From: Lentilactobacillus rapi DSM 19907 = JCM 15042
Lineage (GTDB): Bacteria > Bacillota > Bacilli > Lactobacillales > Lactobacillaceae
Direction: 5' to 3'
DNA: 39,162 nt
NCBI RefSeq assembly: GCF_001436255.1
Contig: NZ_AZEI01000032.1
Span: forward strand, 1-39,162
In this document: one piece after another, positions 4,205 through 39,162 of the stretch
Position numbering within the stretch: the first letter of the stretch is position 1
How the letters are laid out: each line of letters begins with the position of its first letter
Translations under genes and position numbers: made by a program
Notes under the pieces: model-generated
Databases searched by the model: none
What the model saw: only the letters and a program-made list of their open reading frames with translations
Told to the model about the DNA's origin: nothing

Positions 4205-4395
4205 GAAATTGGGACGAATGGCGATTTGATCTCAGAATTTAAGCGAAAAAAGTAATGCATTCGAGTTTTTGAATGCATTATTTTTTTGGGCTTAAATGGC
4301 CGGTCTTTTTCGTATGCAGAATCGACTGTATAAGCGAGTGGGGCAAAAATTCCAATACAGGATATTTGAAGCAGTCGCTCATACAAGCTAATTGA
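4205..4395 (+). repeat. Family A hairpin element (A1), diverged
   Basis: Begins about 20 nt after the stop of the secreted-protein gene and fills most of the 302-nt gap to the MFS gene. The conserved flank TTTGATCTCAGAATTTAA is present. The stem pairs AATTTAAGC (4236-4244) with GCTTAAAT (4290-4297), then an A-run with a T-run, then TAATGCATTC with GAATGCATTA. A second inverted repeat follows: TGTATAAGCGA (from 4328) against TCGCTCATACA (to 4385), 10 of 11 paired. The T-rich descending arm may also terminate transcription. Confidence 0.6.
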
Positions 4396-4485: not shown

Positions 4486-5655
4486 TTGTTTAAGAAAAGG
4501 AGCGAAATACGATTTAATTCCGTCATTATTTATTCCCTTATCCTAAACGCTGGCGCCTCATTCATGTGGCCGCTTGTCACTGTTTACATGCATAACTACT
4601 TACATAAGTCACTCACTTTGGCTGGGTTTACGTTGTTGGCAATGTCGGGCTTTATGATGCTTGGAAATTATTTAGGTGGGTATTTATTCGACCGGTGGTC
4701 CCCATATCTATCGACGATCATCAGCGTGTTAATTTCAACTTCAGCAATTGTTGCCTTGATCTTCTTCCATGACTGGCCGATGTTTTCGATCTTGCTGTTA
4801 TTTGTGGGCTTCGGGGATGGTTCGTGCATGACCTTGTTGAACTCCTACGCCGCAAGTATCAAAAGTCGGTCAACCCGAGCGATTTTTAATATTCTGTATA
4901 TCGGGCAAAATGTCGGGATTGTGATTGGAACATTGATGGTCGGGTTCCTGCTGAAGCACGGCGTGACGGTTGTGTTTATGGTGACGTCGTTATTTTACGC
5001 GGCACTATTGATCATTACCTTGATTGATTTCAACGTTGAAGTTGATCGGAGAATTCCTGATAAGGCAATCACCCGCGGGGCACCGCCAGAGATCAATGTG
5101 AATAAAATGGTGCTGGCCATTTGTGGGGTTGTCCTGGCAGTCTACTTAGCATACGCATTGTGGGAAAGTGTTGTGCCAGTTCATATGACGAATCTGCACA
5201 TTCCATTTGAAAATTATAGTTTGCTATGGACATTAAACGGCTTGATGATCGTTTTTGGTCAGCCATTTGTCAATCGGGTTAGTACCCGGATTAAATTGAG
5301 TACCCAGACATACGTTGGTTCAATGGTGTTCGCTGCCTCATTTATCTGTTTAATATTTGCCAAGACTTATCCGGCATTCATTTTAGTGATGGTGATTACC
5401 ACGTTGGGCGAAATGATTGGATTCCCGGGAATCCCAGCCTGGATTGATAGCCTGTCGACCCCTCAGCAGCGGGGAAAATTCCAAGGCATGTATAATTTGT
5501 TCATGTCTTGTGGTCGGGCAGTCGGGCCATTGTTTGGTGGCTTGATTCTTGACTTTGCTTCTTACCGAGGTTTGTTCATGCTGGCGGCGGGGTTGATTAT
5601 TATCTTTATGGTGATTCTGATGGTTGTTAATCGAAGTCGGGAATTGACGAAATGA
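4486..5655 (+). CDS. MFS transporter (drug:H+ antiporter-like)
   Basis: A 389-aa integral membrane protein of the major facilitator superfamily with 12 predicted TM segments. The loop 2-3 signature appears as GNYLGGYLFDRWSP (about residues 64-77), close to motif A. A G-rich TM5 region (NVGIVIGTLMVGFLL) resembles antiporter motif C. These features suggest proton-coupled efflux of small molecules; the substrate cannot be read from sequence. The start is TTG 4486, supported by a GAAGGGA SD 8 nt upstream; no better ATG lies nearby. The gene appears monocistronic. Its stop codon lies inside the outer arm of family A element A2. Confidence 0.85.
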   Translation: MFKKRSEIRFNSVIIYSLILNAGASFMWPLVTVYMHNYLHKSLTLAGFTLLAMSGFMMLGNYLGGYLFDRWSPYLSTIISVLISTSAIVALIFFHDWPMFSILLLFVGFGDGSCMTLLNSYAASIKSRSTRAIFNILYIGQNVGIVIGTLMVGFLLKHGVTVVFMVTSLFYAALLIITLIDFNVEVDRRIPDKAITRGAPPEINVNKMVLAICGVVLAVYLAYALWESVVPVHMTNLHIPFENYSLLWTLNGLMIVFGQPFVNRVSTRIKLSTQTYVGSMVFAASFICLIFAKTYPAFILVMVITTLGEMIGFPGIPAWIDSLSTPQQRGKFQGMYNLFMSCGRAVGPLFGGLILDFASYRGLFMLAAGLIIIFMVILMVVNRSRELTK

Positions 5656-5845
5656 GACTGGAACAATCGGCGTTTTGATCCCAGAATTTAACGAAAATAA
5701 CCAATTATTCCTAGTGTCGGAATAATTGGTTATTTTCGTTAAATGGCCGGAATTAGCCGTTTGGTGCAGCTTTTATCCAAGTGTCGGGGGCTCTACGCTA
5801 AGAATTACCGATTGGAAATTAACATAGATCTCAGTCTCATTTTTA
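5651..5845 (+). repeat. Family A hairpin element (A2), best full-length copy
   Basis: Starts over the MFS stop codon and ends 6 nt before the nrdI stop, so it separates two convergent genes. A perfect 26-bp stem pairs 5686-5711 with 5719-5744 around a 7-nt loop. Outside it are GATCC/GGAAT, then CAATCGGC with GCCGTTTG (one mismatch), then CTG/CAG. The outermost arms AATGAGACTG (5651-5660) and CAGTCTCATT (5832-5841) pair perfectly and run into TTTT. It could act as a bidirectional terminator. Confidence 0.75.
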
Positions 5846-6319: not shown

Positions 6320-6430
6320 ATGTGAGCGGATCCAAGCGATTAAAGCTGAAAGGGGTTACTCTCCCAAAATCCTGACTTTGAAAATTCGGGGACGATTCAG
6401 GCTGGTTGCTTAGAACAGCTATCCTAAAAT
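6320..6430 (+). repeat. Family B hairpin element (B0), decayed
   Basis: It retains the family ends (GTGAGCGGATCCAAGCG on the left, CAGCTATCCTAAAAT on the right) and the spacing of about 110 nt. The internal helices are largely eroded; only short AAGC/GCTT and CCC/GGGG type pairings remain. It lies between the YfhO-like gene and nrdI, directly upstream of the nrdI SD. Confidence 0.55.
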
Positions 6431-9400: not shown

Positions 9401-9601
9401 GCCACCACCAGGGTTATTCAGGAACGAGGCAATCATATGCCTGAACTGAACCAAAATGGGATAGTGTTGTGCTAACCCGTCCAGTTCCCAAATCATTGAG
9501 CGGCCAGTCATGAATAAGCACCCAACAAGAACACAAATCAGTGCGACAAATAGCACCGAATAGGTGATCCATGCGGGTGTTTTTTGCCAAACTTTTTTCA
9601 A
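6479..9601 (-). CDS. YfhO-family polytopic membrane protein (probable cell-envelope glycosylation)
   Basis: A 1040-aa protein whose first 460 residues hold about 12-13 TM helices in a GT-C-like arrangement. A large extracytoplasmic region (about 470-1000) follows, then a final TM helix near 1005-1025 and a basic tail rich in Lys and His. The opening segment with GRSMIWELDGLAQHYPILVQF, and later FNYLIILFPKS and FNGYALATGLHHP, fit the YfhO family (PF09586). Members act in glycosylation of teichoic or lipoteichoic acids in Firmicutes; the acceptor here is inference. The start is TTG 9601, chosen because AGGAGGG lies 6 nt upstream. The SD borders the tandem family B repeats (9622-9870), so its promoter must lie within or beyond those repeats. 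Confidence 0.85.
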   Translation of the reverse strand: MKKVWQKTPAWITYSVLFVALICVLVGCLFMTGRSMIWELDGLAQHYPILVQFRHMIASFLNNPGGGFTHWAWNISLGSDQLTNFSYYVVGDLFNYLIILFPKSQIETGFAFLVFLRMYASGLAFLLYASTYKFKKFSKVVGAIAYTFNGYALATGLHHPFFILPLIFFPLLCYGIDRVLTNKSWLPLIFAVFLVFLGNFYFAWILGIGAIFYTLIKGASLWKHPDFHFFKSLGKLIVSVVLGLGMSAIVFIPTIILATGSTRITDNFANGLKVFPPEYYLNIIDSILPTGRAMNFWLVIGISSVSFLGLVYMLRHFKTYLWNNIGLVIVCIGILIPAFGAVMNALSTPSNRWVLLGNIIFGIATVIFMDNLDHFTRRDVGWFTGAGALLIVLVWASNGFLMNLQRHDFVTYGFLLATVIVVLCAFFFNWSSSTKKLVILSVFMLNIGSNIIGIYSPNASNLAIQQMNRDLPTRFEQDYFNGANNYLKDQPGFFRTSKAPRYHYNEHLQNLANYTNTNTDLSMNTGVNDESVYLTLQNGYLGKFSQAVGNSQFSMNTPIAQGDYRTAFNDLLGVKYIFAKANTKKAPTLPYGYKPVRDKNGKIKTFEAKPRVNAVPAIENMDGTAIYKTNNALPLVYSQTKTVSPSQFNRLNAVDRERVMTQGAVVNKDQYNTNPLTYKSPSHHLKYKVQVDETKVIDSGRQLTKYRLGILGDQDADKVIDQPHAQVSLSANLQKTKALLETNKMILENNEYENKNGLKKMTSDVTGKPFDYSLTINKPKQTKNAELFLVLDGIKQTDGTVADHNKWYENEFLLQNKLYSRLAKVNAARHDLLKPTFGGYLFDARAKGFHNGYAQYDKDNLSNYRQIHSMVLNLGYSKSARKTIKLNFNQIKNIKFKSVKLIAMPYNQSYDKQMAHLKQTGLKHLNVHQNNVTGTANNRQATTLVTSIPYSSGWKLTIDGNQAKTFVVNKGFVGAKLPAGVHRIHFHYTTPGLKLGTWLSIGSSLIVLLLIIGAGFMKLFPQEREPAKHASSHLKGHRKD

Positions 9602-9621: not shown

Positions 9622-9746
9622 AAGTGAGTGAAGTAAAGCGGTTAGAAACTGGAGCCTAAGTCTCCTTCTGCGGAAATCCCTGGTTTTGGGATTTTTGCAG
9701 AAGGTGCTTAGGTGGAAGTTTCTGCTTTACGGAGCTGTCCTAAAAT
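9622..9746 (+). repeat. Family B hairpin unit B1
   Basis: The nested helices pair in order as GTAAAGC/GCTTTAC, AGAAACT/AGTTTCT, CCTAAG/CTTAGG, CCTTCTGC/GCAGAAGG and ATCCC/GGGAT. The loops GGTT, GGA and TCT/TG are the same as in other units. It is the first of two tandem units with a 125-nt period and touches the SD of the YfhO-like gene. Confidence 0.85.
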
Positions 9747-9870
9747 AAGTGAGTGAAGTAAAGCGGTTAGAAGTCGGAGTGTAAGTTTCCGCCGAGAGAA
9801 ATTCCCGATTCCGGAATTTTTCTCGGTGGTGCTTACATGCAGGTTGCTGCCGAAGGTGCCCCCTCACCCA
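9747..9870 (+). repeat. Family B hairpin unit B2
   Basis: Second tandem unit. Helix 2 is AGAAGTC against GGTTGCT (six of seven pairs, two of them G-U). Helix 3 is GTGTAAG/CTTACAT, helix 4 is CCGCCGAG/CTCGGTGG, and the tip is ATTCC/GGAAT. The outermost helix is lost because the right flank has diverged. Confidence 0.75.
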
Positions 9871-15351: not shown

Positions 15352-17976
15352 ATGATTGAAAACAAAGTAGCAGAAAAGAAAGCACCAAAAACTGAAGGCA
15401 AGACTGACGTTGATACAATGATTAACGGTTTAGTTTCAAAGGCGCAAAAAGCACTTAAAATCATGGACTCATTTGATCAAGAGAAAGTTGATCACATCAC
15501 TCACGAAATGGTGATGGCTGGTCAAGATAAGCACATGGAATTAGCTCAGATGGCTTATGACGAAACCGGCCGTGGGGTTGCTGAAGACAAAGCAATTAAG
15601 AATATGTATGCCACCGAAGAAATCTGGCACAGCATCCGTAACCACAAGACCGTTGGCGTTATCAAGGATGATAAGGAGCGCCAATTAATTACCGTTGCTG
15701 AACCTCTTGGTGTCCTTGCAGGAATCACGCCTGTAACCAACCCAACTTCAACTGCATTGTTTAAATCAATTATCTCGATGAAAACCCGAAACCCAATTAT
15801 CTTTAGTTTCCATCCCCAAGCATTGAAATCATCAATTGCAGCAGCCAAAGTTGTTCGCGATGCCGCAATTGCCGCCGGCGCTCCTGAGGGCTGTATCCAA
15901 TGGATCACTGAACCAAGTATTGAAGCAACTGATAAGTTAATTAATAACCCAGGAGTTGCCAGCACGTTAGCTACTGGTGGTCCCGGCATGGTGAAGGCCG
16001 CTTATTCTACTGGTAAACCAGCCCTTGGTGTTGGTCCTGGTAATGGCCCGGTTTATATTGAAAAAACGGCTAATATTCTACGGGCAGTCAACGATTTGGT
16101 TCTTTCAAAGACCTTTGATAACGGGATGATCTGTGCGACTGAAAACAGTGCCGTTATTGATACTGAGATCTACGATGAAGTGAAGGCCCAACTCGTTAAG
16201 AACGGTGTTTACTTTGTTCCAAAGAATGAGCACCAAAAATTATCTGACGCCATGTTTGATCCAAAGCGTGGCAGTGTTCGTGGTCCAATCGCTGGTAAAT
16301 CAGCCAAAGGGATCGCAAAGCTGGCAGGGATTAAAGTGCCAGCTAACACGAAGGTATTGGCTGCAGAAATTACTGGCGTTGGCCCAAAGCACCCACTTTC
16401 AGCTGAAAAATTAAGTCCAGTGATTAGTGTGTACCGGGCAAAAACGCAGCAAGATGCATTTGATATTTGTGAAAAGCTGCTCAACTTTGGTGGCCTTGGC
16501 CATACTGCTGGGATTCAAACATTGGATGACGATGTTGCCCTCAAGTTTGGTATCAAGATGAAAGCGGCCCGAGTCCTTGTTAACACACCAGGTGGCCTTG
16601 GTGGGGTTGGTAACTTGTACAACGAAATGACGCCATCATTGACATTGGGAACTGGCTCATGGGGCGCAAACTCAATTTCTCACAATGTGACCGATTACGA
16701 CTTATTGAACATCAAAACTATCGCAAAGAGACGAAATAATATGCAATGGATTAAGTTACCACGGGTTTACTTCGAAAAGACTTCTATCAGATACCTCGAC
16801 GACATGCCAGGTATCAACAAAGTGTTCATCGTAACCACCCCAGGAATGGTTGAACATGGCTACGTTGATACGGTCTTAGATGAATTGAAGCGACGACCAA
16901 ATGAAATCGAATATTCATTGTTCTCAGATGTTGAAACGGACCCAACCACCGATACAGTCGAAAAAGGGGTTCGTCAAATGCGGGCATTCCAACCTGATAC
17001 CATCATTGCTTTAGGTGGTGGGTCACCACTTGATGCCGCTAAGAATATGTGGTTGTTCTACGAAGACCCTAAGACAAGTTTCTTCGGTGCCAAGCAGAAG
17101 TTTATTGATATCAGAAAACGGGCCTATCGTTTCCAGAAGCCTCGTAAGGCGCAAATGATTGCTATTCCAACCACCTCAGGGACTGGTTCGGAAGTTACCC
17201 CATTCGCGGTTATCACCGATTCAAAGACTCACGTTAAGTACCCATTGGCCGATTATGCGTTGACACCAGATGTTGCCATCGTTGACTCACAATTTGTGGA
17301 AACTGTACCAAAGGGAACGGTTGCTGCATCAGGTCTTGACACACTTTGCCATGGAATTGAATCATATGTTTCAACAATGGCTTCTGATTACACACGACCA
17401 TTGTCATTGCAAGCAATCAAGCTGGTATTTGAGAATTTAACTAAGTCCTATAATGGTGACACGCATGCCCGTGAAGAAATGCACAATGCAGCTACTTTAG
17501 CAGGGATGGCCTTTGGAAATGCCTTCCTGGGAATCACTCATTCAGTTGCTCACAAGCTTGGTGGTGAATTTGGCATTACCCACGGAATTGCAATTGCAAT
17601 CACGGTACCGCACGTTATCCGCTTCAATGCCAAGTTGCCAGAAAAGATTGCCGTATGGCCTAAGTACGAGTATTTCCGGGCTAACAAAGACTATGCCGAT
17701 ATTGCCCGATACATTGGCATTCAAGGGAAAAATGATGAAGAATTGATCGAAGGATTAGTTCAGAAATTTATCGAATTGGCTCATTCAGTTGGTGTCACTC
17801 TGAGCTTAAAGGCTCAAGGCGTTGACAAGGCCAAGTTCGAAGCATCATTGGACCGCCTTGCAACACTCGCATACGAAGATCAATGCACCACAGCTAATCC
17901 AAAGGAACCATTGATTGCTGATCTCAAGCAGATTATGATTGATGATTATGATGGAAAAGATGTAGAGCGTGACTAA
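15352..17976 (+). CDS. adhE: Bifunctional acetaldehyde-CoA/alcohol dehydrogenase
   Basis: An 874-aa fusion enzyme that reduces acetyl-CoA to acetaldehyde and then ethanol, using two NADH. Residues 1 to about 440 form the CoA-acylating aldehyde dehydrogenase, with the catalytic Cys at 261 in GMICATENS. Residues about 465-874 form the iron-dependent alcohol dehydrogenase, with GGGSPLDAAK near 555 and the metal-binding region at His730, His734 and His744 (HSVAHKLGG...GITHGIA). Length is that of full AdhE, and no motif is missing. In a heterofermenter this step re-oxidises the NADH made by zwf and gnd. The SD is TTGGAGGC. A Rex-like operator and tandem cre-like sites lie upstream. A family A hairpin starts exactly at the stop codon. 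Confidence 0.97.
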   Translation: MIENKVAEKKAPKTEGKTDVDTMINGLVSKAQKALKIMDSFDQEKVDHITHEMVMAGQDKHMELAQMAYDETGRGVAEDKAIKNMYATEEIWHSIRNHKTVGVIKDDKERQLITVAEPLGVLAGITPVTNPTSTALFKSIISMKTRNPIIFSFHPQALKSSIAAAKVVRDAAIAAGAPEGCIQWITEPSIEATDKLINNPGVASTLATGGPGMVKAAYSTGKPALGVGPGNGPVYIEKTANILRAVNDLVLSKTFDNGMICATENSAVIDTEIYDEVKAQLVKNGVYFVPKNEHQKLSDAMFDPKRGSVRGPIAGKSAKGIAKLAGIKVPANTKVLAAEITGVGPKHPLSAEKLSPVISVYRAKTQQDAFDICEKLLNFGGLGHTAGIQTLDDDVALKFGIKMKAARVLVNTPGGLGGVGNLYNEMTPSLTLGTGSWGANSISHNVTDYDLLNIKTIAKRRNNMQWIKLPRVYFEKTSIRYLDDMPGINKVFIVTTPGMVEHGYVDTVLDELKRRPNEIEYSLFSDVETDPTTDTVEKGVRQMRAFQPDTIIALGGGSPLDAAKNMWLFYEDPKTSFFGAKQKFIDIRKRAYRFQKPRKAQMIAIPTTSGTGSEVTPFAVITDSKTHVKYPLADYALTPDVAIVDSQFVETVPKGTVAASGLDTLCHGIESYVSTMASDYTRPLSLQAIKLVFENLTKSYNGDTHAREEMHNAATLAGMAFGNAFLGITHSVAHKLGGEFGITHGIAIAITVPHVIRFNAKLPEKIAVWPKYEYFRANKDYADIARYIGIQGKNDEELIEGLVQKFIELAHSVGVTLSLKAQGVDKAKFEASLDRLATLAYEDQCTTANPKEPLIADLKQIMIDDYDGKDVERD

Positions 17977-18071
17977 GCCGGTTTGATCCCGGAGCATAAA
18001 TAACGTCCCCAATAATGAACGGTCTTTGTTCATTGTTGGGGACGTTGTTTATGTAGTAGGGATCAGGCTTA
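17974..18071 (+). repeat. Family A hairpin element (A5)
   Basis: The outer arm TAAGCC begins with the adhE stop codon and pairs with GGCTTA (18066-18071). TTGATCCC pairs with GGGATCA. The inner stem 17995-18020 pairs with 18028-18053 over all 26 positions (24 Watson-Crick, 2 G-U) around a 7-nt loop. No U-run follows, so it is not a classical terminator. Confidence 0.75.
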
Positions 18072-18072
18072 T

Positions 18073-18116
18073 GGGAACGTGTTTATTCTAGATAAGGGAG
18101 AAATAAACGCGTTCCC
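18073..18116. repeat. 15-bp inverted repeat downstream of element A5
   Basis: GGGAACGTGTTTATT (18073-18087) pairs with AATAAACGCGTTCCC (18102-18116) with a single G-U pair and a 14-nt loop. It begins two bases after A5 and lacks a T-run. Nothing else supported lies between here and the HD-domain gene apart from a TATAAT-like -10 at about 18230. Confidence 0.7.
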
Positions 18117-20265: not shown

Positions 20266-20997
20266 ATGACTGATTTAGTGTATCGCACCATCATGAAAGA
20301 CTTAAAGGACAGGATTCAGGCCAACGAATTCGAATCCAAACGATTGCCTGATGAGCGCAGCCTGAGTGAATCTTATGGTGTCAGCAGAAGCTCGATTAAG
20401 CGGGCCTTAAATGTTTTAGCAAATCAAGGCATTATCTTTAAGAAGCGGGGATCCGGCACGTTTATTAACCCACTGTATCAGAAGAATCAGACAATCTTTC
20501 AATATGAAGGATCAAATTTGGGGGTTACGGACAGCTTTAAGAGCAATGGCAAAGTTCCCCAAATTAAACTGCTGGATTTTAAGGTCATTCCAGCCAGTGA
20601 GGAATTGCAGACAGAATTATTTTTGGATCCGGGCGAGTTTGTCTATCAAATCAAGCGATTACGTTCGTTTGATAATAAGCCGTTCATGATTGAAATGGGC
20701 TATATCCCGATTAGGGTAGCGCCAGAGTTGAACAGCGAAAGAGTGGAAGGTTCAATCTTCAATTATTTTGAGGATACAACTGGCAAGTCGGTTACAAAGT
20801 CATTTATGACAATTACGGCAGATCCGTCAAGTGAAGAGGACCAAAAGCTATTGGCCTTAAAACCGATAGAACCGGTGGGCGTTATGGAAGGCATTTTCTT
20901 CTTGGATGATGGAACGCCATTTGAGGTTTCAAATATGCGAATTCATTACAAGTACTTGAATTATAATACGTTTGTGAGCTTGGATGAAAATAGTTAG
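20266..20997 (+). CDS. GntR-family transcriptional regulator (HutC/UTRA type)
   Basis: A 243-aa repressor-type protein. Residues 1-70 form the GntR winged helix, with the recognition-helix region SLSESYGVSRSSIKRALNVLANQG and the wing GIIFKKRGSGTFI. Residues about 85-235 form a UTRA effector domain (EFVYQIKRLRSFDNKPFMIEMGYIP...), which in relatives binds sugar phosphates or similar ligands. The ATG has a TAAGGAG SD. A perfect palindrome covers its promoter, suggesting autoregulation. The next gene on the strand is xpk, 675 nt away, with hairpin repeats between. It could control xpk or a distant sugar operon; neither is shown. Its stop codon abuts family B element B7. Confidence 0.88.
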   Translation: MTDLVYRTIMKDLKDRIQANEFESKRLPDERSLSESYGVSRSSIKRALNVLANQGIIFKKRGSGTFINPLYQKNQTIFQYEGSNLGVTDSFKSNGKVPQIKLLDFKVIPASEELQTELFLDPGEFVYQIKRLRSFDNKPFMIEMGYIPIRVAPELNSERVEGSIFNYFEDTTGKSVTKSFMTITADPSSEEDQKLLALKPIEPVGVMEGIFFLDDGTPFEVSNMRIHYKYLNYNTFVSLDENS

Positions 20998-21114
20998 TGT
21001 GCGGAGCGAAACGCTTAGGTGCGGCAATATAAGGTCTCCCCACCAATAATCCTGATTTTGGGATTATTGGTGGGGAGACCTTATATTTTTAGCACCTGTT
21101 TCGCGGAGCACAAT
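20996..21114 (+). repeat. Family B hairpin element (B7)
   Basis: It begins at the gntR stop codon. The helices are GCGAAAC/GTTTCGC, AGGTGC/GCACCT, AATATAAG/CTTATATT and a perfect 17-bp top stem (CCCCACCAATAATCC and flanks against its complement) around TGATTTTG. Every helix sequence differs from the 28-kb array, while the loops stay similar. It is the most perfectly paired copy in the window. Confidence 0.8.
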
Positions 21115-21304
21115 TCGTCTACATATCGGAGACCGATTACATTGAGCAACTGGGACATTTAGCAATGAATTTTATTAATGGATCCTTTATGTTTACGGCC
21201 TGCTTCGCGGAGCACAATTCAACTATATAGCGGAGACCAATTACACGAATCAACTGGACTTTATCATTGGATTCTTTAGGTGTGAGCACCTGTTTCGCGG
21301 AGCA
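21091..21304 (+). repeat. Tandem partial copies of the B7 right arm
   Basis: The 20 bases 21091-21110 (right arm of B7) recur, identical except for the first base, at about 21285-21304 and in diverged form at about 21196-21213. The sequence after the first two copies is also related (CACAATTC, TATATAGCGGAGACC, CAACTGG, TTGGATTCTTTA-like), so this is a repeat of about 90-105 bp. The rest of 21305-21540 holds no gene I can support. Confidence 0.65.
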
Positions 21305-24466: not shown

Positions 24467-24700
24467 CAGAGTGGGACTAAAGGCGAACTGGTCCCACAAT
24501 CAAATAGGCCGGAACAATAGACGCTTTGATCCTATAATTTAACGAGAAAAACCAGTTATTCCTGATATTGGGATAACTGGTTTTTCTCGTTAAATGACCG
24601 GGATCAGCCGTTTGTTGCGCCCTTTATCTGAGCATCAGTGGCGATCCAATGAAGATCACCATTAGGAAATCGGGGTATCTCCTCACTTTGATAGCTGTAT
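24467..24700 (+). repeat. Family A hairpin element (A3)
   Basis: Occupies the gap between the small gene and the convergent amidase gene. The stem 24537-24562 pairs with 24570-24595 over 26 positions (one G-U). Outside it TTTGATCC pairs with GGATCA, and CAATAGACG pairs fully with CGTTTGTTG. The right-hand tail shares ATCAGTGGCGATCCAA-like words with A4. Confidence 0.75.
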
Positions 24701-27137: not shown

Positions 27138-27160
27138 GGTTTTCCTCTTCTAAACAAAAA

Positions 27161-27345
27161 GGCTGGGGCAAGCGGCGTTTTGATCCTAGAATTTAATGAA
27201 AAGAACCAATTATTCCGGATTTGTTGGAATAGTTGGTTCTTTCTATATATATGGCTGGGATCAGTTGTTTGGTACAGCCCAATCCAAATATCAGCAATGA
27301 TCCAAGCAAAAGGGTACTGGTTAGAAATCAATAGCTGTCCCAGTT
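27161..27345 (+). repeat. Family A hairpin element (A4)
   Basis: Ends 12 nt before the usp stop codon and starts 24 nt upstream of the pseudouridine synthase start. Outermost arms CTGGGGCA (27163) and TGTCCCAG (27336) pair at all 8 positions. CAAGCGGC pairs with GTTGTTTG, largely by G-U. TTGATCC pairs with GGGATCA. The tip stem AGAACCAATTATTCC pairs with GGAATAGTTGGTTCT. The lower half of the tip stem is eroded. Confidence 0.75.
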
Positions 27346-27830: not shown

Positions 27831-27865
27831 GTTCATCACCCCATAATCGATTTGCTTCCATCTAA

Positions 27866-27894
27866 ACTATAACATTCTCAGGTGGAATTGTAAG
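27866..27894 (-). promoter_or_regulatory. usp promoter
   Basis: On the minus strand CTTACA (27894-27889), a 17-nt spacer and TATAGT (27871-27866), 36 nt before the chosen ATG. Confidence 0.6.
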
Positions 27895-27900
27895 CAAAAA

Positions 27901-28025
27901 AGTGAGCGGAGCTAGGCGCTTAGAAATTGGAACATAAGTTTCCTCAATCGTAAATCCTGGTTCTGAGGATTTACGATTGAGGTGCTTATGTGGAAATTTC
28001 TGCCTAGAGGAGCTGTCCTAAAACA
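27901..28025 (+). repeat. Family B hairpin unit B3 (array unit 1)
   Basis: The helices are CTAGGC/GCCTAG, AGAAATT/AATTTCT, ACATAAG/CTTATGT, CCTCAATCG/CGATTGAGG and AATCC/GGATT, all paired. The internal loops GCTT, GGA/GGA and TTT/TG match the family. Confidence 0.88.
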
Positions 28026-28150
28026 AGTGTGCGGATCCAGGCGGTTAGCAACCGGAGCGTAAGTCTCCGCAAGCAGAAATTCCGGTTTTGGGAATTTTTG
28101 ATTGTGGTGCTTACGTGTAGGTTGCTGCCTGGAGGAGCTGTCCTAAGAGA
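28026..28150 (+). repeat. Family B hairpin unit B4 (array unit 2)
   Basis: The helices are CCAGGC/GCCTGG, AGCAACC/GGTTGCT, GCGTAAG/CTTACGT, CCGCAA/TTGTGG and ATTCC/GGAAT. Compared with B3 many paired positions have changed on both sides. The period to B3 is 125 nt. Confidence 0.88.
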
Positions 28151-28274
28151 AGTGAGCGGAGTAAAGCGGTTAGAAACTGGAGTCTAAGTCTCCTTTTTCA
28201 GAAATCCCCGGATTTGGGATTTTTGAAAAAGGTGCTAGGTGTAAGTTTCTGCTTTGCGCAGCTGTCCTAAGAGA
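28151..28274 (+). repeat. Family B hairpin unit B5 (array unit 3)
   Basis: The helices are GTAAAGC/GCTTTGC, AGAAACT/AGTTTCT (the right side reads AAGTTTCT), CCTTTTTC/GAAAAAGG and ATCCC/GGGAT. Helix 3 has lost one base on the right (GTCTAAG against CTAGGT). It is closest to B1 at 9.6 kb. Confidence 0.85.
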
Positions 28275-28399
28275 AGTGAGCTAAGTAAATCAGTTAGAAG
28301 TCGGAGTGTAAGTCGCCGCCGTGGGAAATTCCCGGTTCTGGAATTTTTCGCAGTGGTGCTTACATGCAGACTTCTGCTTGAAGAAGGTAGCTTAAAATA
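28275..28399 (+). repeat. Family B hairpin unit B6 (array unit 4)
   Basis: The helices are AGAAGTC/GACTTCT, GTGTAAG/CTTACAT and ATTCC/GGAAT, with a weaker helix 4. The outermost helix is degraded. The unit ends 20 bp before the lplA -35. Confidence 0.8.
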
Positions 28400-28418
28400 G
28401 TAAAGGGCTTGCATGTGA

Positions 28419-28447
28419 TTGTAATCGCTTACGGTTGGTGCTACCAT
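28419..28447 (+). promoter_or_regulatory. lplA promoter overlapped by a cre-like site
   Basis: TTGTAA (28419-28424), a 17-nt spacer and TACCAT (28442-28447). TGTAATCGCTTACG (28420-28433) matches the CcpA consensus TGWNANCGNTNWCA at all but the last base and covers the -35, which predicts glucose repression. Confidence 0.55.
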
Positions 28448-28484
28448 TCTTATGAGTCATAAAATGAAAAGAGGGTTTTTGAAT

Positions 28485-30668: not shown

Positions 30669-30866
30669 ATGCGATGAGTCGAGAGACCACGCAGCATTTA
30701 TGCTGTTCGCGCAAGCGACTAAGGTGGTATTTTGAGCGGGACACATTTTAAGCACGGATTTGTGGTGTCTGACTTCAGCGGATTGTGGAGTCCAAGAAGT
30801 CCATTTATATTAATATAAGTGCCGCAGAAAAGGATTAGCTGAATTTCAGCTAATCCTTTTTTCAAT
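30669..30866 (+). ncRNA. Putative structured small RNA of about 195 nt
   Basis: A promoter precedes it and a strong terminator ends it, with no gene between on either strand. Several pairings can be drawn by eye. ACCAC (about 30686) pairs with GTGGT (about 30725) and encloses CAGCAT-TT-ATGCTG and TCGC-GCAA-GCGA, a stem capped by a GNRA tetraloop. GACAC...GTGTC and GACTTC...GAAGTC hairpins follow. I do not recognise it as SRP RNA, tmRNA, RNase P, 6S RNA or a named riboswitch. No downstream gene is read in this direction, so a cis-acting leader is unlikely. A 25-codon ORF inside it lacks an SD. Confidence 0.5.
30828..30866. terminator. Bidirectional intrinsic terminator
   Basis: AAAAGGATTAGCT pairs with AGCTAATCCTTTT around a short loop, with T-runs on both strands. 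It would end the putative small RNA on the plus strand and the oxidoreductase transcript on the minus strand. Confidence 0.88.
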
Positions 30867-34917: not shown

Positions 34918-34949
34918 GTTAATAACCCTTAAATGACTGGAGAAAATTC

Positions 34950-36740
34950 ATGACGACGATTGAAGAACTTGAACAATATATTGATGCTGGTGCTGCCAAG
35001 ATTCCCGCTGATACAGTCATTGAGCACGGAACGTTGGTGAACGTTGACACCGCCGAATATTATCCAGCTGACGTTGCCATTTATAACGGTAAAATTGTTG
35101 CGGTCGATGAGGATATCAACGATTACATTGGCCCAAATACCAAGCATATTGATGCCACTGGCAAATACCTGGTTCCGGGCATGATTGATGGTCACATCCA
35201 CGTTGAATGCAGCAAGATGAGCATGACCAGATTTGCCCAGGCAGTAGTGCCTCACGGAACGACCAGTATTGTTTCTGGATTGGATGAATATATTTCAACC
35301 ATTGGCATCAAAGGCCTGGACGAGATTTTTGCCGAAATCGATCAGAGCCCGTTAAAGGTATTCTGGGGGCTGCCATACAAAACACCGTACACAATCCCCA
35401 AGTCAACGATCAGTTATGACGTGTCTGCCAAGGACCATGAAGCAATTCAACCGAATGAAAACTGCTATGGTGTTTGGGAAACGGTTCGTGAAGCAGTTGA
35501 AATGAAGGATCCTGATGCCCTCAAAGCAATCTTGACGGCCCAAAAGTATCACAAACCAATCTTTGGCTGTTCTCCCATGGCGACTGGCAAGGCGTTAAAC
35601 CAATTTTTGATGAGTGGCGTTCATGTTGATCACGAAAGCTATTCTCATGAAGAATTTTTAGAAAAAGCCCGTAAAGGCATCCATGTGGTGATTCGGGAAT
35701 CTTCAGTCACTAAATTTTTAAAAGAAAATATTCGTGCCATTACAGAAGGAGCGGCCGGAGTTGCGCGTCATACCAGTTTCTGTACCGATGATGTCAACGC
35801 CAGGGACATTTTAAATCATGGCCACCTTGATCATATGGTTCGATTAGCGATTAAAGCAGGCGTTTCTCCAATGACTGCCATTCAGATGGCAACCGTTAAC
35901 GGCGCCGAAGCTTACCATATTGATGATCGGGTCGGCTCAATCGCCCCAGGAAAGGATGCCGATATTCTTCTGATCGACCAACCTGGTTCATTTACCGTTG
36001 AAACAGTCGTCAGCAAGGGGCAGTTGGTTTCTGAAAACCAAACCGAAGCGATGAGCTTCAATCCACCCAAACGATCTGCTCAAATCCAAGGTCAACTGAA
36101 GCACGCCCCAATGCAGCCAACAGATTTTGACTATCGAGTTGACCAATCTGCTGGAACGGCATTGGTTCGAACCATTCACAGCGTTGGGCCATTTGTGCGT
36201 AAGGCTCAAGATATTGAATTAACGATTAAAAATGGTGTTGTGATTCCGGATCCTGAAAAGGATATCGCTGCCGTCTCAGTCATTGAACGATACGGCGTTA
36301 ATGGTAACCAGTCGCACGGTTTCATTTCCGGCTGGTCGTTTAAACGGGGCGCGATTGCGACTTCCGCTTCTCCAGATGATAATAATTTGGTGGTTGCCGG
36401 TGTGAATACCAGTGATATGGCGTTAGCTATCAATACACTGATTGAGTGTGGCGGCGGTCAAGTTGTTGTGGTTGATGGCAAGGTGGTTGCTTTGCTGGAA
36501 TTACCAATCGCAGGGATTACAGCTGATTTAACCCCAACTCAACTCGCGCAAAAAGAAATTGAATTAAAACACGCTGCCGAACAACTTGGCAGCACTTTAC
36601 CCGACCCATTATTCTACCTGTCGTTCCTGCCGATTACCGCTATCCCGGATTTGGCAATTACGGACAGTGGCAATGTGGATTATCCAAAATTAGCATATTT
36701 CGATCCTATTTTGAAAGTTACCAGCAATGACAATGCATAA
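34950..36740 (+). CDS. ade: Adenine deaminase (AdeC/YerA family)
   Basis: A 596-aa amidohydrolase that converts adenine to hypoxanthine and ammonia. The metal-binding motif GMIDGHIHVECSKM is at about residues 75-88. The region GCSPMATGKAL...GVHVDHESYSHEE carries further ligands, and RHTSFCTDDVNARDIL holds the conserved Asp pair. The C-terminal adenine-deaminase domain follows, with GGGQVVVVDGKVVALLELPIAGI. Length is normal for AdeC. The SD GGAG is well placed. As the second gene after the purine permease it takes imported adenine into the hypoxanthine pool. A family A hairpin starts 3 nt after the stop. Confidence 0.93.
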   Translation: MTTIEELEQYIDAGAAKIPADTVIEHGTLVNVDTAEYYPADVAIYNGKIVAVDEDINDYIGPNTKHIDATGKYLVPGMIDGHIHVECSKMSMTRFAQAVVPHGTTSIVSGLDEYISTIGIKGLDEIFAEIDQSPLKVFWGLPYKTPYTIPKSTISYDVSAKDHEAIQPNENCYGVWETVREAVEMKDPDALKAILTAQKYHKPIFGCSPMATGKALNQFLMSGVHVDHESYSHEEFLEKARKGIHVVIRESSVTKFLKENIRAITEGAAGVARHTSFCTDDVNARDILNHGHLDHMVRLAIKAGVSPMTAIQMATVNGAEAYHIDDRVGSIAPGKDADILLIDQPGSFTVETVVSKGQLVSENQTEAMSFNPPKRSAQIQGQLKHAPMQPTDFDYRVDQSAGTALVRTIHSVGPFVRKAQDIELTIKNGVVIPDPEKDIAAVSVIERYGVNGNQSHGFISGWSFKRGAIATSASPDDNNLVVAGVNTSDMALAINTLIECGGGQVVVVDGKVVALLELPIAGITADLTPTQLAQKEIELKHAAEQLGSTLPDPLFYLSFLPITAIPDLAITDSGNVDYPKLAYFDPILKVTSNDNA

Positions 36741-37675: not shown

Positions 37676-39079
37676 ATGTCATTAGGTTCACGAATTTTTA
37701 AACGGGAGAAATTGGATCGTTACCTTGAAACTGACAAAAAATTTATTAAAACGATGTCAACTTTTGATCTGATTGCCCTAGGGATTGGGGCGGTGATTGG
37801 TACTGGTATCTTTATTCTGCCAGGAACCGTTGCTGCCACCAAAGCTGGCCCGGGAATTATTCTTTCATTCATTGTGGCGGCCATTGTGTGTTCAACTTCA
37901 GCCATGTGTTACGCCGAATTTGCCTCGGCGTTACCAGTTGCTGGAAGTGCCTATTCATATGGAAACCTGGTGTTCGGCGAGATCATCGGCTGGGTATTGG
38001 GCTGGGCATTGATTTTGGAGTACGTTCTGGCTGTTGCGGCGGTTTCTAGTGCGTGGGGCGCTTACTTTCAATCGTTCTTAGCCGGTTTTCATATTGGTTT
38101 TCCAAAGGCCATTTCCGGTCCGTTTGTACCGAGTCAGGGAACCTATGGTAATGTGATTGCAATTATTATTGTTATTTTGATTTCCTGGATGTTAAATCAT
38201 GGGATGCGCTCGTCAGTTCGATTAAACAACTTAATTGTTGTTGTCAAAATTGGGATTATTTTGCTATTTATTCTAGTGGGCGCCTTTTATGTAAAACCAA
38301 CTAATTGGCATCCATTCTTACCCTACGGTTGGATGGGTGGCAGCCACGGCGGTGTCTTGGGCGGCGCTGCTGCGGTATTCTTTGCCTATTTGGGCTTTGA
38401 CGCGGTTTCGAGTTCAGCTGCCGAAGTTAAGAATCCCAAACGAAACATGCCGATTGGAATTATTGGGACGTTGATTGTTGCCACCATTTTGTACGTTGGC
38501 GTTTCGATCGTCTTAACGGGAATGGTTTCGTACACCAAGCTGGACGTTGCGGATCCGGTTGCCTTTGCCTTGCAATTTGTGAAGCTGAATTGGGTTGCTG
38601 GTATCATTTCGCTAGGAGCGTTGGCCGGAATGTTTACGATGATGGTCACAATGACTTACAGTTCTTCAAGATTAATTTATTCGATTGGTCGAGATGGGTT
38701 GCTGCCAAAATTCCTTGGTAAGTTGGATAAAAAGGGCAGTCCAAGAAACAGCCTGATAACGATTACGATTGTGATTGCTTTTATGGGTGGCTTTGTTCCC
38801 TTGGATCAATTGACCAACTTGGTTAATATTGGCACGTTGATTGCCTTTCTCTTCGTGTCATTTGGGATTATCCCATTGAGAAATAATAAAGAAATTCAAA
38901 ATCACCACGGATATCAGGTTCCCTGGTATCCAGTATTGCCGATAGTTTCTGGCTTGTTATGTATGGTGATGCTGTCACAATTGCAAGCAGAAACCTGGAT
39001 TGCATCAGGAATTTGGTTCGTGTTTGGCCTTATTCTTTACTTCGGGTATGGAATGAGACATAGCCGGATAAGTGCATAG
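37676..39079 (+). CDS. APC-family amino acid permease (cationic amino acid transporter-like)
   Basis: A 467-aa integral membrane transporter with 12 predicted TM helices. The N-terminus LGIGAVIGTGIFILPGTVAA is the TM1 unwound substrate-binding region (GxGIF) of the APC superfamily. The loop CYAEFASALPVAGSAYSYGNLVFGEIIGW is the family consensus, and FFAYLGFDAVSSSAAEVKNPKRNMP is TM6 and the following loop. It is closest in appearance to YfnA-like/CAT-type permeases; the amino acid is not assignable. The ATG has a TGGAGG SD. A cre-like site lies before the promoter. The stop codon abuts a family B element cut by the window end. Confidence 0.9.
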   Translation: MSLGSRIFKREKLDRYLETDKKFIKTMSTFDLIALGIGAVIGTGIFILPGTVAATKAGPGIILSFIVAAIVCSTSAMCYAEFASALPVAGSAYSYGNLVFGEIIGWVLGWALILEYVLAVAAVSSAWGAYFQSFLAGFHIGFPKAISGPFVPSQGTYGNVIAIIIVILISWMLNHGMRSSVRLNNLIVVVKIGIILLFILVGAFYVKPTNWHPFLPYGWMGGSHGGVLGGAAAVFFAYLGFDAVSSSAAEVKNPKRNMPIGIIGTLIVATILYVGVSIVLTGMVSYTKLDVADPVAFALQFVKLNWVAGIISLGALAGMFTMMVTMTYSSSRLIYSIGRDGLLPKFLGKLDKKGSPRNSLITITIVIAFMGGFVPLDQLTNLVNIGTLIAFLFVSFGIIPLRNNKEIQNHHGYQVPWYPVLPIVSGLLCMVMLSQLQAETWIASGIWFVFGLILYFGYGMRHSRISA

Positions 39080-39162
39080 AGCGCAAAAAGTAGCGGTTTG
39101 ACTCATTCATATAAGCCGACCCCCAGTGAAAGCCCGTTTCTGGCTTTCACTGGGGGTCGGCT
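39078..39162 (+). repeat. Family B hairpin element (B8), truncated by the window end
   Basis: It begins at the permease stop codon. The left strand shows the family order GAGCG, GCGGTT, helix 2 (TGACTCA-like), helix 3 ATATAAG, then a perfect top stem (CCGACCCCCAGTGAAAGCC region against its complement) around a 7-nt loop. The last two bases, CT, are the expected start of helix 3's right side (CTTATAT). Confidence 0.65.

Follow-up and report, generated by a model that had tools for sequence, protein, structure and literature searches.

The window analysed here, the whole of a 39,162-nt contig of Lentilactobacillus rapi, contains several members of a family of ~121-nt multi-helix hairpins, most of which begin with AGTG. 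In our view, these units are rather probably non-autonomous mobile elements, similar to REPs or MITEs, which would be mobilized by an enzyme in trans and would build arrays by insertion at landmarks.

On the forward strand at 27901-28395, TRF recovers the four tandem units with a period of 124-125 nt that an earlier sequence-only reading of this DNA had described. Each of the four folds as a multi-helix hairpin, as was claimed there (z from -4.2 to -8.1; for every unit, 0 of 200 shuffles are as stable), and the helix 2 and helix 3 sequences are those given in that reading; the third unit has a deletion in helix 3. The 5'-most unit, u1 (27901-28021; 131.4 bits with covariance model R1; fold z -8.07), shares 95% identity with a unit from another array of the same genome. 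It is followed by u2 (28026-28146; 134.8 bits), which is 90% identical to unit 1 of L. dabitei, its orthologue at the same site, by u3 (28151-28270; 121.2 bits), and by the 3'-most unit u4 (28275-28395; 89 bits), whose 3' end is eroded and which is 83% identical to the orthologous unit 2 of L. dabitei. The units are separated by 4-nt linkers at 28022-28025, 28147-28150, and 28271-28274, the last two of which are both GAGA.

The other units of the contig also lie on the forward strand. Using the covariance model and folding, we find the copies proposed at 9.6, 9.7, and 21.0 kb to be genuine. The 9.6-kb array begins with a unit at 9623-9743 (132.9 bits), whose start adjoins the anti-Shine-Dalgarno of the gene at 9601 (flank CCCTCCTAAAAAATA), and continues with a 3'-truncated unit at 9748-9864 (80.5 bits). 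The 21.0-kb unit (20996-21109; 88.1 bits; fold z -13) has the other type of 3' end (GAGCAC...) and sits flush against the stop codon of an ORF that ends at 20997; reading the sequence by eye, we take this ORF to encode a GntR-type regulator. A diverged unit that the earlier list had omitted (17964-18086; 63.5 bits) overlaps the 3' end of the ORF ending at 17976, presumably adhE-like as read by eye from the sequence, and the 171-nt stretch at 17940-18110 folds with -70.6 kcal/mol. The 6.3-kb copy, said to follow the same plan, turns out to be a degenerate relic (6322-6427, with the model match starting at 6321; 37.6 bits; fold z -0.02). The copy announced at 39.1 kb is a match to the family (39078-39162; 34.5 bits) but an incomplete one, since the contig ends inside the unit and its 3' part is lost; the assembly was probably interrupted by this palindrome. 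The window also contains another family of dispersed palindromes, repeat D2 (4206-4262, 5655-5711, 24506-24562, and 27160-27216), two of its copies having 26-nt arms that are 100% and 96% complementary.

The hairpin is subject to a strand-specific structural constraint. In a 64-unit alignment, 33 of the 39 pairs vary on both sides, the fraction of paired cells is 95.2% compared with 78.3% after shuffling and 38.6-47.1% when the 3' partners are slid, and the covariation score is 0.530 compared with 0.205 after shuffling, with 0 of 500 shuffles reaching the observed value; the alignment used for this test is also the one that yielded the structure, and the controls leave some relatedness. Despite the shared alignment and relatedness, the gap over the controls is very large. 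The alignment (A2) holds 64 of 135 units, of which 72 passed a redundancy filter and 71 were at least 100 nt long, minus seven odd or degenerate units removed by hand, the window's own u4 among them. Among units that are 90-95% identical, whose pairwise comparisons are not independent of one another, 215 stem pairs differ on both sides where 29 would be expected if the changes were independent, and one-sided differences from a Watson-Crick pair to another state yield G-U in 194 cases versus A-C in 64. Even the closest units show eight both-sided changes where 0.7 are expected. Across 212 units, and restricted to 32 predominantly Watson-Crick pairs out of 38, G-U outnumbers A-C by 178 to 91 (ratio 1.95; 1.42-2.83 by bootstrap over arrays). 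The bias points the same way whether arrays lie at stop codons (51:31), at Shine-Dalgarno-like motifs (64:37), or elsewhere (63:23). The ~2:1 excess of G-U over A-C indicates that the fold of one strand is selected, as RNA or single-stranded DNA, and since its direction is equal across array classes, it is a property of the element and not of the neighbouring mRNA. The covariation and the G-U excess thus bear out the earlier proposal of selection for a single-stranded structure (RNA or single-stranded DNA) with conserved loops. In all seven units chosen from other genera and families, the lower stem and a 4-nt one-sided bulge, which we read as GNTT, are present in the fold, and the plan is kept across families with little sequence left. 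Units are also found in Secundilactobacillus species just after lplA, at the same place and on the same strand (L132-L136, L140, L145, L147, 7010-7251), with many paired changes visible by eye; they are a good orthologous set for a covariation test.

The family is large and widely distributed. In this Lentilactobacillus genome, a consensus query gives 111 matches and R1, which was built from 64 units, gives at least 150 at E<=0.01. From 74 loci taken around matches, together with the window, we read 245 copies, none counted twice (215 full, 23 3'-only, and 7 5'-only), in 116 arrays of one (45), two (39), three (15), four (10), five (6), or seven (1) copies. The covariance model scan of related genomes recommended by the sequence-only reading places copies well outside this genome: R1 matches occur in 145 of 397 sampled Lactobacillaceae genomes, representing 23 of 40 genera, and in 35 of 395 genomes sampled at the order level, nine of these 35 lying outside Lactobacillaceae. 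Neither of the two outcomes that had been named as speaking against the family, a lack of covariation and restriction to this genome, was found. In at least one of the nine genomes outside the family (G498), the score is the same as that of the copper-island copy. A near-identical unit is common to nine loci of different genomes (L074-L082), and in the two of these with ORFs listed (L074 and L076) it is located at the called start of a copper-ATPase-like gene; some copies shared across genomes are hitchhikers. Units match 82 plasmid records, 16 of them from Listeria, and a sequence search of phage records gave no unit match, so that a phage origin is rejected. The closest named relative among the matches, from which the records of the window's own genome were possibly excluded, is L. 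dabitei (lplA 99%). At the gathering score, no Rfam 15 family matches the array, the region 27850-28450 giving only sub-threshold matches (best E 0.015). The sole match at that score in the window lies elsewhere than the array, namely Ref68 / Lacto-3 RNA (RF02840) at 30670-30793 with 88 bits. The hairpin family is likewise not described among the literature matches listed, from a search that most subscription journals lie outside.

At their 5' ends, arrays show a preference for landmarks. Using simple ORF calls as gene calls and the 111 of 116 arrays whose first unit is 5'-complete, we find a 5' landmark in 77: in 36 of the 111 arrays, the first unit starts within -4 to +13 nt of an upstream co-directional gene's stop codon, part of which the unit often contributes, and in 41 a CTCC on the array strand, i.e., a Shine-Dalgarno motif on the opposite strand, lies 4-12 nt off. 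The called 5' neighbour is divergent in 39 of these 41 arrays, and its called start is at most 30 nt away in 33. The classes were defined from the same arrays on which they were tested, with two controls as a safeguard: the background, taken from every intergenic position in these loci, is 3.5% for stop codons and 2.1% for Shine-Dalgarno motifs, and the mirror control at the 3' ends gives four and three arrays, respectively. The window array 27901-28395 belongs to neither class and lies 62 nt from the usp start. Decay within arrays is polar, with partial copies making up none of the 71 first, 8 of the 58 middle, and 14 of the 71 last positions in multi-unit arrays; partial copies are predominantly 3'-only, many of them in arrays of 3' halves, and first units exceed last units slightly in their similarity to other copies (0.928 vs 0.902, p 0.075, 56 arrays). 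In L035, L040, L044, L055, and the window (21077-21257), repeated 3' halves with a common tail (CTATGTA...) follow a full unit.

Comparison of relatives reveals both filled and empty orthologous sites. The usp-lplA site holds four units here, two in L. dabitei, and one in L. kisonensis; a 5' remnant is visible by eye in L. fungorum and L. raoultii, and no unit is present in six further relatives among the matches listed. At the 9.6-kb site, two units here correspond to five in the relative G249. There, the first linker is the same as the 5' flank, and the two additional units on the 5' side have counterparts of 97-98% identity elsewhere in this genome; at the L043 site, five units here correspond to two in G249. 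One clear filled/empty pair is provided by G316, with two units flanked by AGTA/AAGTA at a site that is empty in this genome, and L. fungorum carries two units at a site that is empty in the window (34925-34955). No flank duplication is found at the empty site L183. The three-unit array A of L040 has, within the 420 nt read, no counterpart in any of the 20 alignable relatives (the probe could not be aligned in three of the 23); the closest of the 20 reaches 94% identity along the probe. The L038 site is occupied in several species by differing units that share one plan and follow the same gene, and is empty in others.

Near-identical units are common to different arrays. Using 212 of the 215 full units (three were dropped for containing more than 3 N), we find that 164 of the 175 members of multi-unit arrays are closest to a unit of a different array, and that unit pairs at or above 95% identity join different arrays in 86 of 91 cases. 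For 11 of the 175, the closest relative lies in the same array, compared with 1.6 expected, which implies some tandem duplication. Over 135 units, identity averages 75% between adjacent units and 70% between units of different arrays, and chimeric units seen by eye point to recombination between units. The linkers, 3-5 nt long in 61 of 72 cases, are array-specific and repeat the 5' flank of their own array: over 104 linkers, the mean match to the 5' flank suffix is 2.28 compared with 0.73 after shuffling (maximum of 5000 shuffles, 1.43), and 28 of the 104 share at least 4 nt with the 5' flank where 4.0 are expected. A match of at least 4 nt between the two outer ends occurs in 12 of 74 arrays (4.4 expected), the 74 being those among the 111 that begin with AG and end with TCCT; after removal of 12 arrays whose tail runs into an additional, degenerate unit, an outer duplication is seen in 8 of 62 (3.1 expected, p 0.006). 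The linkers thus resemble target duplications, with a weaker signal at the outer ends.

Profile searches of 17 unit-bearing members of the genus, most of them drafts, gave no match to Y1_Tnp in 11, none to RVT_1 in 12, and none to either in nine (mostly drafts, in which transposases can escape). On the basis of the 11 and 12 genomes, respectively, a RAYT transposase and a reverse transcriptase are each rejected as a necessary partner. G217, assembled in two contigs and free of both profiles, has 92 R1 matches, a few of which are the same place on the other strand. In this genome, PF01797 has one match, beside an ORF that we take by eye to be tnpB. The one RVT_1 match of this genome is a 349-aa ORF in L235 (G000:C29:7058-7606), whose neighbours are a small ORF and another of 312 aa that, read by eye, is presumably a lectin-like target; the locus looks like a diversity-generating retroelement (DGR). 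The one IS200/IS605-type locus examined contains no unit profile match, a weak match (E 0.09) lying beyond it. We also looked among the 245 copies for a master element whose two halves flank a gene and found none, the only half-pair being ~165 nt apart.

Several known systems share part of this organization. The EFAR elements of Enterococcus faecalis are palindromic miniature insertion sequences of the Lactobacillales, like the units described here; they are modular, about 170 bp long, and insert into stem-loops, unlike the ~121-nt hairpin units. CRISPR arrays are similar in their polarity, decayed 3' end, and short repeated segment between larger units, whereas here the larger unit itself is the repeat and the short segment is locus-specific. 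According to one source (PMC3733652), REP/BIME sequences are small, palindromic, clustered intergenic repeats whose termini often supply the stop codons of flanking ORFs. These palindromic clusters and terminal stop codons are shared by our family, but the REPs, which are associated with the RAYT (Y1) transposase, are 20-40 bp long according to the same source (PMC3733652), compared with ~121 nt, several helices, and a one-sided bulge here, and the Y1 transposase match is missing from 11 of the 17 genus members that bear units. A second source (PMC3049150) presents the BOX elements of Streptococcus pneumoniae as dispersed, structured, thought to be mobile, and having a tandem variable part, all of which recalls our units; in BOX as described there, however, only boxB is tandem, between boxA and boxC, whereas here the whole element is the unit and short array-specific linkers occur, the comparison with BOX being one of descriptions. 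The definition of MITEs in the same source (non-autonomous, highly base-paired, target duplicated; PMC3049150) also applies in these respects, but no match to IS terminal inverted repeats was found at the one IS locus examined, and the hairpin sequence turns over while its fold stays. The hairpin works like a REP or a MITE, but it fails the tested features of REPs.

Because units are shared between arrays, linkers resemble duplicated flanks, and most arrays start at landmarks, our data favour a transposable hairpin over a housekeeping RNA, and they suggest a small mobile element, so far undescribed, whose fold serves for its recognition. As a plausible mechanism, an enzyme supplied in trans would probably recognise one folded strand via the multi-helix plan and the 4-nt GNTT bulge. 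A new copy would be placed 3' of a short flank X, of which ~4-6 nt would be duplicated; the preferred insertion points would be the very end of a reading frame, the position immediately 5' of a Shine-Dalgarno site, and the place beside an existing copy, and repeated insertion would give rise to (X-unit)n arrays. We infer that the arrays grow as single units insert and not by gene conversion, that recognition depends on the fold, and that the enzyme acts in trans. A more specific version, a fold-defined transposon of Lactobacillales whose folded strand is recognised nearly independently of sequence and delivered to stop codons, Shine-Dalgarno edges, or earlier copies, is offered tentatively, and we hold it to be somewhat doubtful. 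Measured against these results, the sequence-only reading stands on structural selection and wide spread and fails for the 6.3-kb copy; mobility, linker duplications, and landmarks formed no part of it.

The strand-specific pairing with its tolerance of G-U, the conserved loops, the persistence of the plan across families with little sequence left (in the seven chosen units), and the 36 arrays placed in the sense direction at stop codons would also be explained if the units were functional RNAs, acting as 3'-UTR or independent hairpins that stabilise or attenuate transcripts, with arrays kept by selection. We regard this as unlikely: the 41 arrays by Shine-Dalgarno-like motifs are antisense, 33 of them at most 30 nt from a called divergent start, and since the G-U bias has the same direction in these antisense arrays, the fold does not track the neighbouring mRNA; moreover, presence and unit number differ between close relatives, and there is no Rfam match. 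Satellite-like DNA, arising without selection by slippage at TCCTA repeats, gene conversion between loci, and hairpin-templated correction of the arms, is less likely still. Arm correction could account for the excess of both-sided changes that persists even in the closest units (8 vs 0.7), but it does not predict the preference for G-U over A-C (194 vs 64 at 90-95% identity), and the asymmetric loops are conserved. Similarly, TCCTA is present in many 5' flanks and at unit ends, chimeric units are seen by eye, and same-array closest relatives exceed expectation (11 of 175 vs 1.6), all as slippage and conversion would have it; yet adjacent units are scarcely more similar than units of different arrays (0.75 vs 0.70), whole units are shared while linkers stay array-specific, and empty sites exist.

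A strand-specific fold with a one-sided bulge, variable sequence, and polar arrays are further reminiscent of attC-like substrates, in which case a recombinase would shuffle the units as folded single strands. This we consider very improbable, as repeated linkers are unexpected from conservative recombination, no cassettes lie between units, and attC core motifs are not seen by eye in the units.

In the transposable-hairpin reading that we favour, a constraint on structure over sequence is, we think, a rare property in mobile DNA. Comparing the many genomes that carry units with those that lack them could be a way to search for the enzyme. The covariance model permits annotation of these repeats, within one of which at least one assembly breaks (at this contig end). 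The hairpin is an abundant repeat in many lactic acid bacteria, and the fact that it sits at stop codons and Shine-Dalgarno sites poses the testable question of how such an element finds translation landmarks.
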